The notes beneath the pieces were generated by a model, which made no database searches, was not told where the DNA came from, and saw only the letters and a list, made by a program, of their open reading frames with translations. The position numbers and the translations under genes were made by a program. From Metallumcola ferriviriculae (GTDB lineage: Bacteria; Bacillota; JADQBR01): a stretch of DNA of 64,000 bases. The stretch lies in NCBI RefSeq assembly GCF_035573695.1, contig NZ_CP121694.1, positions 3,480,001 to 3,544,000 of the forward strand, given 5' to 3'. This document shows positions 7,805 through 11,248 of this stretch, piece by piece. The first letter of the stretch is position 1; every line of letters starts with the position of its first letter.

Positions 7805-8233
7805 TTAGTCAATAATTTTTTTGATATTGCTCTCAAGTTTATCCTTGGTAGTATCGCCCACTATCATTTCTTCGACCCTATTTTGTGAGTCAATAAAGAA
7901 AATTGCCGGGATATACTGGACCTTAAACATTTGAACCAATTGTGCACTCTGCGGGCTTTGGACATCCACAACGATAAACTGAACCTGTTCATTATATTTC
8001 TCGTGAAGAGCCATAATCACGGGCTCTAATTTCACACAAGTAGGTCAGGTCTCACTGTAAAATTCTAAAAAAATTGGCCGCCCTTCTTTGGTAGCAGCTT
8101 CAAAAACGCCCTGATAATCGGTGATTTGTTTATGTAACGGTACCTGCTGCTGGTCAAACATTGGCTTAAACAGTATATAACCGGCAATCAAAACGACAAT
8201 TAATACTAAAACTATCTTCGCTTTTTGTGACAA
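7805..8233 (-). CDS. membrane-anchored selenocysteine thioredoxin-like protein (UGA at 8045-8047 read as Sec63)
   Basis: Two frames separated only by an in-frame TGA join into a 142-residue thioredoxin-fold protein. The joined active site reads FYSETUPTC, a CxxC motif with Sec in the first position, as expected after the FLEFY strand. A cis-Pro site (YIPAIFFID) lies downstream as in thioredoxins. An N-terminal hydrophobic segment (about residues 6-22) anchors it with the redox domain probably outside the membrane. I favour the TTG at 8233, preceded by a GGGGGGAAAG site; an ATG at 8248 in the same frame lacks one. A SECIS-like hairpin begins 9 bases after the UGA. It is tightly linked to the radical SAM gene downstream. 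Role inferred as thiol/selenol oxidoreductase. Confidence 0.85.
8003..8035 (-). promoter_or_regulatory. SECIS-like hairpin of the selenothioredoxin gene
   Basis: In the mRNA, GUGA-AAUU-AGAGCC pairs with GGCUCU-UCAC around a 9-base loop (CGUGAUUAU), beginning 9 bases after the UGA. Position and stem size fit bacterial SECIS elements, although the loop differs from the fdhA one. Confidence 0.7.
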
Positions 8234-8270
8234 TGTCTTTCCCCCCATTCGTTTAAGACAATTAACATGT

Positions 8271-8436
8271 TTTTCCACAACGTAAACCTTATTACTGCAA
8301 TGCTTTAAGTGATTTTTCCACATTTTCCACATTTTATTAGCAAGCTTGGACGCTGATTATTTTCCACATAGACAAACCCCGATTTTATAAGTTATTAACA
8401 GGGTTATCCACATTATCCACAGGCTGTTAGTCCACA
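8271..8436 (+). promoter_or_regulatory. DnaA-box-like cluster
   Basis: Six plus-strand nonamers match TTATCCACA exactly or with one change: TTTTCCACA at 8271, 8314, 8323 and 8360, and perfect TTATCCACA at 8404 and 8413. A weaker TAGTCCACA lies at 8428. Two pairs are directly abutting (8314/8323 and 8404/8413), 90 bp apart. The cluster lies upstream of the selenothioredoxin gene and downstream of tsaD. It could titrate DnaA or regulate the downstream gene. Confidence 0.7.
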
Positions 8437-8582
8437 AAAACAGATGTTCTTTTTCACAAGCGCACAAGCTCAATTAAAAAATTTTCTGTCCGGCAGCACC
8501 CGTCGTTTTTTGATAACTATAAAATTGCTCCCAAAGTTTATTTTATTAAGTCAATGCTACGTTTTCTTTTTGCACAAAAAAA
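8437..8582. other. intergenic region after tsaD
   Basis: AT-rich stretch between the DnaA-box cluster and the tsaD stop. I see no gene, strong hairpin or clear terminator. Together with 8234-8436 it makes a gene-free interval of about 350 bp. Confidence 0.5.
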
Positions 8583-9602
8583 CTACAGGTAGTTTAAAGG
8601 TAAGTTGGGTACTGCATTTAGATCCAGTCCCGCGTCCTGCCCACCTTTAAGGGCATGATAACCGGCACATGCAATCATGGCTCCATTATCAGTGCAAAGT
8701 ATTGGGGAGGGATTAAATATTTCGGCGCCCTCTACTACAGCTCTTTTTCTTAGGGCGCTGGTCAAACTACCGTTTGCAGCCACCCCGCCGACAACTGCCA
8801 ATTGGTTAAGTCCGGTATCCTTTAAAGCAGCAAATGCTTTTCCCACCAGCACATCAATCACCGCCTGTTGGAAAGATGCTGCCACGTCCTCTTGAATCAC
8901 TTCTTCGCCTTTTTGCCCAGCCCGGTTAATATAATTAAGCACAGCAGACTTAAGTCCGCTGAAACTAAAATCTAAACTACCGCCTTCCAGCCATGCGCGT
9001 GGAAATTGAATAGCACCGGCGTTACCCTCTCTCGCTATTCTTTCTATTTCCGGTCCCCCGGGATAGGATAACCCAAGAGCCCTGGCAACCTTATCAAAGG
9101 CTTCACCTGCCGCATCATCTCTCGTCTGACCTAAAAGCCGCATCCTTCCGTACCCTTCAAGAACTAATAAGCTGGTATGTCCCCCGGAAACCACAAGACA
9201 GAGCAAGGGTAACTTTATCCCCTTATTTTCTAAGAACACTGCATAAATATGACCCATTAAGTGATGGATCCCCAGCAAGGGTTTTTTGAGACTATATGCT
9301 ATTGCCTTGGCTGTAGACACTCCTACCAGCAGGGCGCCCACCAAACCCGGGCCCTGAGTAACAGCCACAGCATTAATATCTTCCCATGATAAAGCCGCTT
9401 CTGTCAACGCTTGCTCCACAACAACAGCTATATTTTCTACATGCTTACGCGAAGCAATTTCCGGCACGACACCGCCATATCGCTTGTGGGTTTTAATCTG
9501 TGATGAAATAATATTAGCGAGGATTTCTTCCCCCCCCGCAACCACTGCTACCGAAGTTTCATCACAGCTTGTTTCTATGCCCAGTACCTTTTCACCACTC
9601 AT
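8583..9602 (-). CDS. tsaD: tRNA N6-adenosine threonylcarbamoyltransferase TsaD
   Basis: Catalytic subunit that attaches the threonylcarbamoyl group to A37 of ANN-decoding tRNAs. The 339-residue length is normal. Visible signatures include GIETSCDETSVAVV at the N-terminus, the metal-binding HLMGH motif near residue 114, and VSGGHTSLLVL. The ATG overlaps the rimI stop by four bases (ATGA). It is last in the tsaE-tsaB-rimI-tsaD cluster, so the modification enzymes are co-transcribed. Confidence 0.97.
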   Translation of the reverse strand: MSGEKVLGIETSCDETSVAVVAGGEEILANIISSQIKTHKRYGGVVPEIASRKHVENIAVVVEQALTEAALSWEDINAVAVTQGPGLVGALLVGVSTAKAIAYSLKKPLLGIHHLMGHIYAVFLENKGIKLPLLCLVVSGGHTSLLVLEGYGRMRLLGQTRDDAAGEAFDKVARALGLSYPGGPEIERIAREGNAGAIQFPRAWLEGGSLDFSFSGLKSAVLNYINRAGQKGEEVIQEDVAASFQQAVIDVLVGKAFAALKDTGLNQLAVVGGVAANGSLTSALRKRAVVEGAEIFNPSPILCTDNGAMIACAGYHALKGGQDAGLDLNAVPNLPLNYL

Positions 9603-10084
9603 CCTTTCACCTCGTCATCGATGCCTTCAATATCCATCAATAAATGTTTCCACATAATTATGGCATCTTCGTTATTGTCAGTATAATAGCCTTTTCTGAC
9701 TCCTGCTTCGGCAAAACCCATCCCTTTATACAACTCCCGGGCAGTAAGGTTGGATGGACGCACCTCTAATGTCATCTTATCTGCTCCGTGCAGAAGTGTC
9801 TGCTGCATTAGAAACAATAACATTCGTTTGCCAAAGTCCAAACCGCGAAATTCCCGAGCTACCGCTATGTTAGTAATATGCGCCTCATCTAAAATCAACC
9901 ACATACCGGCGTAACCAGCCACCTTTTTTTCAAGCAGGCAGACATAATAATGGGCGAATCTATTATGGCGGATTTCCCCCTCAAAAGCTCTTTTTGACCA
10001 CGGAGTAGGAAAAGAATGCTTTTCTATTTCCAGAACCTGAGGCAAATGCCTGAGCTCCATGGGTGCAAAAGCGGGTTCCTTCAC
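9599..10084 (-). CDS. rimI: ribosomal protein S18 alanine N-acetyltransferase RimI
   Basis: GNAT-fold acetyltransferase of about 161 residues between tsaB and tsaD, the usual location of rimI. The acetyl-CoA loop is recognisable around AVAREFRGLDFGKRML, and the C-terminal ELYKGMGFAEAGVRKGYY is typical. I place the start at GTG 10084, which follows AAGGAGG with 9-base spacing. An in-frame ATG at 10111 would overlap tsaB and lacks a good site. Substrate assignment to S18 rests on family and context. Confidence 0.9.
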   Translation of the reverse strand: MKEPAFAPMELRHLPQVLEIEKHSFPTPWSKRAFEGEIRHNRFAHYYVCLLEKKVAGYAGMWLILDEAHITNIAVAREFRGLDFGKRMLLFLMQQTLLHGADKMTLEVRPSNLTARELYKGMGFAEAGVRKGYYTDNNEDAIIMWKHLLMDIEGIDDEVKG

Positions 10085-10088
10085 TAGT

Positions 10089-10799
10089 CTAGACCTCCTT
10101 GCCAGTGCCATGTTTAGACTCCCAACTCACCTCTGCTTCGGAGCGGCGAATATAGAATGGTGCTAGATTATAAATATCGTCCACCTCACCGCGTTGTAAC
10201 CGCTGCCAAGCCAATTGAGCAACCTGGGCCGCACGGGGCCAGCGGTTTCCCTGGGCCGCCTTCCTTAAAAAAGGTTCTTTAAATACTTCAGGATAGGCAT
10301 CCACTGCATCGCCCAAAATGGTAACCGGTTGATCATATTTAGCAAGCTGCTCCATTAGTTCACTTGGTGCCACGGCCATATAGTCCGTCAAACGACACAG
10401 TTCATTATCCTGGGTATTGTAAACAGCGGTATAGACCTCACTTTTACGAGCATCCAACAATGGACATATTAGACCCTGTGCTCCCGAAACATTCATGGCC
10501 AAGCCATCAAGAGTAGACACCCCGATAGCAGGCTTGTTTAGTGCTATACACATCCCTTTCACCGTAGCCAATCCTATACGTAAACCGGTAAAAGAACCCG
10601 GTCCGATGGCCAAGGCAAATGCTGCTACTTCTTCAATGTCCTTGGCGACAAACCGTAATAAACTATCTACCAACGGCATTAATGATTGAGAGTGGTTCTT
10701 TGAAGTATTGGTAAAAAACTCTCCTATCAGCTTGCCTTTATCAATAACCGCGACACTGGCTACTGCGGTAGCTGTTTCTAAAGCAAGAATCACGTCCAA
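10089..10799 (-). CDS. tsaB: tRNA threonylcarbamoyladenosine biosynthesis protein TsaB
   Basis: Inactive paralogue of TsaD that scaffolds the t6A complex with TsaD and TsaE. The 236-residue length fits. Motifs include ILALETATAVASVAVI at the N-terminus and GPGSFTGLRIGLATVKG near residue 70. The probable start is TTG at 10799, seven bases after GGAGGAG; the first codons overlap the tsaE 3' end by ten bases, giving translational coupling. Confidence 0.95.
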   Translation of the reverse strand: MDVILALETATAVASVAVIDKGKLIGEFFTNTSKNHSQSLMPLVDSLLRFVAKDIEEVAAFALAIGPGSFTGLRIGLATVKGMCIALNKPAIGVSTLDGLAMNVSGAQGLICPLLDARKSEVYTAVYNTQDNELCRLTDYMAVAPSELMEQLAKYDQPVTILGDAVDAYPEVFKEPFLRKAAQGNRWPRAAQVAQLAWQRLQRGEVDDIYNLAPFYIRRSEAEVSWESKHGTGKEV

Positions 10800-11248
10800 T
10801 TCTCCTCCAATTCCTTTAGCAATTTAGTATACGCTGAGCCGTATGGAATTATTTCCACAGCCCGGCCATCTTCCACGCGGCTTATCTTAATCGCCAAGCG
10901 TTCTTGGGGCAGTAATCCGGCAATGTTATCCGGCCACTCCACCACTGTCACACAGTCTCCCGGAAGATATTCCTCCAAGCCTGCATCAAAACCCTCCTGG
11001 GCATTGTTGAGACGATAAGCATCGATGTGGGCTATATCATACCTGCCATTATATATATTCAATAAAGAAAAAGTGGGGCTGGTTACCGGTTCCCCAACCC
11101 CTAAAGCCGCTGCAATGCCTTTTGTAAGTGTGGTCTTACCAGCTCCTAAATCCCCACTGAGTACCAATACGTTACCAGGCCCAATCAATTCACCAATACT
11201 ATTTCCTAATTTTAGAGTATCTTCTTCCTTGGCTAGAAATAAGTACAT
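10790..11248 (-). CDS. tsaE: tRNA threonylcarbamoyladenosine biosynthesis ATPase TsaE
   Basis: A 152-residue P-loop ATPase of the t6A complex. The Walker A motif GDLGAGKTTL is near residues 35-44, followed by SPTFSLLNIY and HIDAYRL, both family hallmarks. It is first of the four-gene t6A/rimI cluster, whose genes overlap or nearly abut. About 380 bp of non-coding DNA lie upstream and should carry the promoter. Confidence 0.95.
   Translation of the reverse strand: MYLFLAKEEDTLKLGNSIGELIGPGNVLVLSGDLGAGKTTLTKGIAAALGVGEPVTSPTFSLLNIYNGRYDIAHIDAYRLNNAQEGFDAGLEEYLPGDCVTVVEWPDNIAGLLPQERLAIKISRVEDGRAVEIIPYGSAYTKLLKELEENWT

Follow-up and report, generated by a model that had tools for sequence, protein, structure and literature searches.

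A DnaA-box cluster downstream of tsaD recurs across Bacillota and probably corresponds to the gcp cluster of Bacillus subtilis

The DNA downstream of tsaD in Metallumcola ferriviriculae carries a cluster of DnaA boxes, and clusters of this kind recur at tsaD across the phylum Bacillota. In the window (the whole stretch of 64,000 nucleotides that was analysed, chromosome positions 3480001-3544000), six nonamers with at most one mismatch to TTWTCCACA lie on the plus strand within 151 bp (8271-8421), at 161-311 bp past the tsaD stop codon. The region is probably an extra-oriC DnaA-box cluster and the positional orthologue of the B. subtilis gcp cluster, which putatively holds DnaA and restrains initiation. 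The six nonamers, including two abutting pairs exactly 90 bp apart, had been described in an earlier sequence-only reading, and all were recovered where that reading had placed them, the weak box at 8428 being its end point. DnaA-box clusters have been delimited as at least three boxes at a mean distance below 100 bp, in the form in which Mackiewicz 2004 is quoted in PMC7561715, and the six boxes in 151 bp fall within this definition.

Table 1. Genes and DnaA boxes at the tsaD locus (positions in the window).
Feature	Position	Strand	Remarks
tsaD (gcp), tRNA N6-adenosine threonylcarbamoyltransferase	8583..9602	-	PF00814, 335 bits; 3' end faces the cluster
rimI-, tsaB- and tsaE-like genes upstream of tsaD	9599..11248	-	ORFs; TsaE by domain match
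Membrane-anchored thioredoxin, in-frame TGA (UPTC)	7805..8250	-	PF00085; beyond the cluster; start codon uncertain
DnaA box TTTTCCACA	8271..8279	+	about 23 bp ahead of the likely thioredoxin start
Abutting pair TTTTCCACA-TTTTCCACA (boxes at 8314, 8323)	8314..8331	+	
DnaA box TTTTCCACA	8360..8368	+	
Weak box TTATTAACA	8392..8400	+	2 mismatches; 12 bp 5' of the perfect pair; opens the triple-box module
Abutting perfect pair TTATCCACA-TTATCCACA (boxes at 8404, 8413)	8404..8421	+	module core
Weak box TAGTCCACA	8428..8436	+	2 mismatches; same offset past the pair as the TATTCCACA box of the 704-kb site
Possible weak box TTTTTCACA	8450..8458	+	2 mismatches

The two pairs in Table 1 are the only exact abutting TTWTCCACA pairs (TTWTCCACATTWTCCACA) in the genome of 3,720,236 bp. 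The window contains 32 nonamers that differ from the consensus at one position at most, as compared to 17.5 +/- 4.1 in shuffled sequences, and the whole genome contains 185 copies of TTWTCCACA, as compared to 94 of the reversed control pattern. By our own Poisson estimate, using a rate of 185 per 3.72 Mb, six boxes in 151 bp would be expected with a genome-wide probability of about 1e-9. Individual positions cover the first 100 TTWTCCACA sites, up to 2.96 Mb, and the whole genome for exact TTATCCACA.

Conservation was analysed in 179 genomes from across the phylum and in 113 tsaD loci, with each genus represented roughly once; searches at the level of family, order and class yielded only three genomes. 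The sample genomes were assigned to Bacillota from the tree, in which TsaD proteins of named Bacillota are interspersed with theirs. The 500 bp past the tsaD stop contained 198 TTWTCCACA boxes over the 113 loci and a single match to the reversed control, as compared to 0-11 boxes in the other 500-bp bins, which corresponds to 3.5 boxes per kb after tsaD and 0-0.2 per kb in the remaining bins. With a broader motif list, at least two boxes were found at 72 of the 113 loci and at least three at 63 (56%), whereas the frequencies were 1.9% and 0.6%, respectively, in 1,679 control stretches. Thus, the conservation at tsaD loci of related Firmicutes that had been proposed as a check extends across the phylum. 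In intergenic DNA alone, 7.6 boxes per kb were observed after tsaD, as compared to 0.26 per kb in other intergenic regions (29-fold lower) and 0.06 per kb in coding DNA, which rules out a generic intergenic enrichment; the equal density in other intergenic regions that had been named as a reason to reject the cluster was not found.

An unbiased scan for TTATCCACATTATCCACA recovered 91 abutting pairs in 71 of the 179 genomes and none with the reversed control. Thirty-seven of the pairs (36 genomes) are found in the first 800 bp past tsaD, where 0.026 were expected, and all are antisense to the gene. The same orientation holds for 303 of 329 boxes (92%) after tsaD with the broader motif list, which is only partly informative since background boxes share the antisense bias (60:13), part of which follows strand composition. 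It is extremely improbable that the boxes reflect chance, base composition or the sites of another protein. Composition does matter, since TTATCCACA is enriched on one strand per replichore, but the reversed controls returned next to nothing for either boxes or pairs, and together with the shuffles they rule out chance and composition.

Named relatives with a cluster are two Desulfosporosinus, one Syntrophomonadaceae and one unclassified Bacillota locus; no clusters were found at Lachnospiraceae and Eubacterium tsaD loci. Outside Bacillota, none of 68 tsaD loci had two or more boxes, and no abutting pairs were present in 43 genomes. Approximately one third of the sampled loci are devoid of boxes past tsaD, among them one genus from the family of M. 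ferriviriculae (G002), and the cluster is therefore dispensable or replaceable. Mapped on the TsaD tree, cluster presence requires 24 changes, as compared to 40 with shuffled labels. This pattern would fit an old trait with many losses, and gains are also possible. The recurrence in most of the sampled genera suggests an old replication control site far from the origin rather than a peculiarity of one genome.

The boxes are also regularly spaced. Distances of 14-80 bp between same-strand boxes fit a 10.5-10.75 bp periodicity (R = 0.51; n = 235 spacings, which are not independent observations because the loci are related), and the commonest distances between neighbours were 9 and 12 bp, followed by 42-44 and 51-54 bp. 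The first two distances describe a module with the consensus TTAT(C/T)(A/C/T)ACA-gac-TTATCCACA-TTATCCACA, in which a degenerate box is located 12 bp 5' of an abutting pair. Of 29 tsaD pairs, 23 have a box with at most two mismatches at offset -12, and the remaining upstream positions that were examined for these 29 pairs yielded none; away from tsaD, the -12 box accompanies 30 of 43 pairs. In the window, the module consists of TTATTAACA at 8392, the trinucleotide ggg and the boxes at 8404 and 8413; a site at 704 kb in the same genome has the nearly identical TTATTAACAGGGTTATCCACATTGTCCACAGG. The module is thus a recurring weak-strong-strong triple box with 12 + 9 bp spacing and phasing of about 10.5 bp, without a DnaA-trio.

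The distance from the replication origin, another check proposed in the sequence-only reading, was calculated from the position of dnaA (313,070-314,389, minus strand), which lies together with oriC at 313-315 kb. The cluster maps to 3,488 kb, which puts 546 kb, or 14.7% of the chromosome, between it and oriC. Among 20 chromosomes that were assembled completely or nearly so, the median distance between tsaD and dnaA was 18.7% of the chromosome (maximum 36%), and tsaD was co-directional with replication in 19 of the 20. In one sampled genome (G036) tsaD opposes replication, and the boxes are still antisense to tsaD. DnaA boxes flank dnaA on both sides, and the DnaA protein of this genome contains GGRDHTTVIHA (DHTTV motif). 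In addition, the very end of the contig (3720056-3720226) holds a fragment that matches Bac_DnaA weakly and contains an internal TAG.

The gap between dnaA and dnaN contains TTTTCCACATTATCAACA followed by agcccTACTACTATTACTA, a typical double box with a DnaA-trio. The cluster resembles this bipartite Bacillota oriC in its abutting pairs of the same direction; unlike the origin, it lacks the GC spacer and the DnaA-trio and is not beside dnaA, and we do not class it as an origin. A trio run, TACTACTATTACTA, follows the oriC pair and was found after 0 of 29 tsaD pairs, so that the arrangement of an unwinding site is present at the origin of this genome and absent from the tsaD pairs. A secondary or relict replication origin at tsaD has almost no probability on these grounds, even though the boxes abut as at oriC and the intergenic region is AT-rich (66% as compared to 55% for the window), since the trio run is missing and dnaA and oriC are found together elsewhere.

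The closest known system is the region downstream of gcp in B. subtilis. The sequence-only reading had named this precedent, which is real, and the location here is similar: a strong DnaA-binding region with 10 sites lies downstream of gcp and of ydiF, at 628 kb of the 4.2-Mb chromosome (PMC4447404). Both clusters contain multiple boxes directly downstream of tsaD/gcp, at a similar distance from oriC. They differ in the gene on the other side, which is the convergent ydiF in B. subtilis and a co-directional, TGA-containing thioredoxin gene here; the neighbour is not required for the assignment, and a convergent ABC-F-like gene does follow the cluster in some of the sampled loci. The B. subtilis region binds DnaA with a Kd of 0.15 uM for the ATP form and 0.33 uM for the ADP form, and at 55 nM the binding of ATP-DnaA was 16-fold better at gcp, as compared to 3-4-fold at oriC (PMC4447404). 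Deletion of six clusters in B. subtilis leads to early initiation, and putting one cluster back partly corrects this (PMC5295017, PMC13220808).

By analogy, several DnaA molecules would assemble on the phased boxes of the same direction, with the weak-strong-strong triple box as the core, the strong abutting pair of which resembles the pair at the genome's own oriC. Unwinding requires a GC spacer and a DnaA-trio; both are missing here, and we propose that the cluster holds DnaA while the DNA stays closed. Its origin-proximal position would lead to duplication soon after initiation, and the duplicated cluster would then lower the amount of free, probably ATP-bound, DnaA and so restrain re-initiation. 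The weak box may provide the ATP specificity. A change in the nucleotide state of DnaA, rather than holding alone, is distinctly unlikely. Such a role is known for datA and DARS1/DARS2 of E. coli, which stimulate ATP hydrolysis or nucleotide exchange on DnaA with IHF/Fis. Like the present cluster, they are non-coding groups of DnaA boxes remote from oriC, and they affect initiation. The conserved spacing and the presence of both strong and weak boxes point to a defined complex rather than a mere sponge. However, the E. coli sites are at other loci in another phylum, and datA needs IHF, whereas B. subtilis has neither IHF nor datA/DARS loci and no such regulator is known there (PMC13220808).

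The genes beyond the cluster belong to many families across the loci. Representatives were identified as lgt, 5-formyltetrahydrofolate cyclo-ligase, LytR-CpsA-Psr, a GNAT/rimI-like gene and a DUF512 radical-SAM protein like one in the window, as well as murC and a convergent ABC-F gene, the last two by sequence features only. The next gene is convergent in 15 of 71 cluster-bearing loci. Four loci (L156, L185, L205 and L230; families f35 and f82) have an unusual order with a convergent rimI-like gene after tsaD, and the cluster is kept. Since the next gene is variable, the cluster belongs to the 3' side of tsaD, and the regulation of one conserved neighbour is ruled out as the general reason for it.

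In the window, the thioredoxin gene is co-directional with tsaD and reads away from the cluster. Its in-frame TGA (SETUPTC) is a probable selenocysteine codon, which would make the product a selenoprotein; a stem-loop 3' of the TGA was only weakly better than in shuffled sequences (z = -1.8). A main role of DnaA as a transcription factor of this gene, by which its expression would be tied to the replication state, is unlikely. The boxes start just before the likely start codon and cover the upstream region of the gene, and DnaA is known to repress or activate several genes in B. subtilis (PMC4447404), but no single target explains the conservation of a cluster next to such different genes, some of them convergent, and promoter-like matches at the locus were at chance level. 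The regulation of the selenothioredoxin gene suggested in the sequence-only reading is weakened by the same observations.

A second DnaA-box site with the same triple module was observed in this genome between comFC on one side and an amino-acid ABC transporter and hpf on the other (boxes near 704406-704466; locus 699406-709466). As counted from the coordinates, 18 of the 91 abutting pairs (17 genomes) are located directly after comFC, where the next gene is often hpf or encodes the binding protein of an amino-acid transporter. In a comFC sample chosen by score, at least two boxes were present at 5 of 30 loci, suggesting that this site is less widespread than the one at tsaD. A link to the t6A pathway was considered, as clusters in B. 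subtilis are located at both gcp (tsaD) and ywlC (which we take to be tsaC); it gained no support from the second site of this genome, which follows comFC.

The comFC pairs also bear on a possible roadblock function, in which bound DnaA would stop the transcription of the tsaE-tsaB-rimI-tsaD operon. The boxes at the tsaD 3' end are nearly always antisense, even in the genome with tsaD opposed to replication, and the locus in the window yielded no intrinsic terminator. Yet the pairs after comFC are mostly sense to that gene, a roadblock would make the phased triple modules unnecessary, and one third of the genomes have no cluster. A roadblock is therefore very unlikely. Returning to the replication control reading, we tentatively suggest an extended form, which may well prove too broad: the 3' side of tsaD could be an ancestral decoy of the DnaA platform of the origin, with a trio-less triple box of the above spacing and phasing shared with the comFC site, which would sense ATP-DnaA and set the timing of initiation across most of the phylum.

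DnaA-box clusters as a kind and the gcp site in B. subtilis are already known, and Gram-positive clusters outside oriC are known mainly from that species. The phylum-wide conservation, the triple module and the comFC site appear unreported in the literature searched, to which Okumura 2012 did not belong. The importance of extra-oriC clusters is disputed because a strong effect in B. subtilis was seen only with six removed; one cluster kept at the same gene in about two thirds of the sampled genera argues for selection. The cause of the ATP-DnaA preference at gcp could not be found from too few regions (PMC4447404), and the triple-box module provides a concrete candidate sequence for it.

Two further observations concern TTATCCACA in this genome. 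Its copies are located mostly on one strand per replichore (plus on one side of oriC and minus on the other), which probably follows strand composition. Finally, an identical set of TTATCCACA boxes, with two inverted boxes separated by 39 bp and another at a distance of 1,246 bp, was observed at 293282-294575, 1197796-1199089 and 3438015-3439308. This suggests a repeat element with DnaA boxes, which is perhaps mobile.
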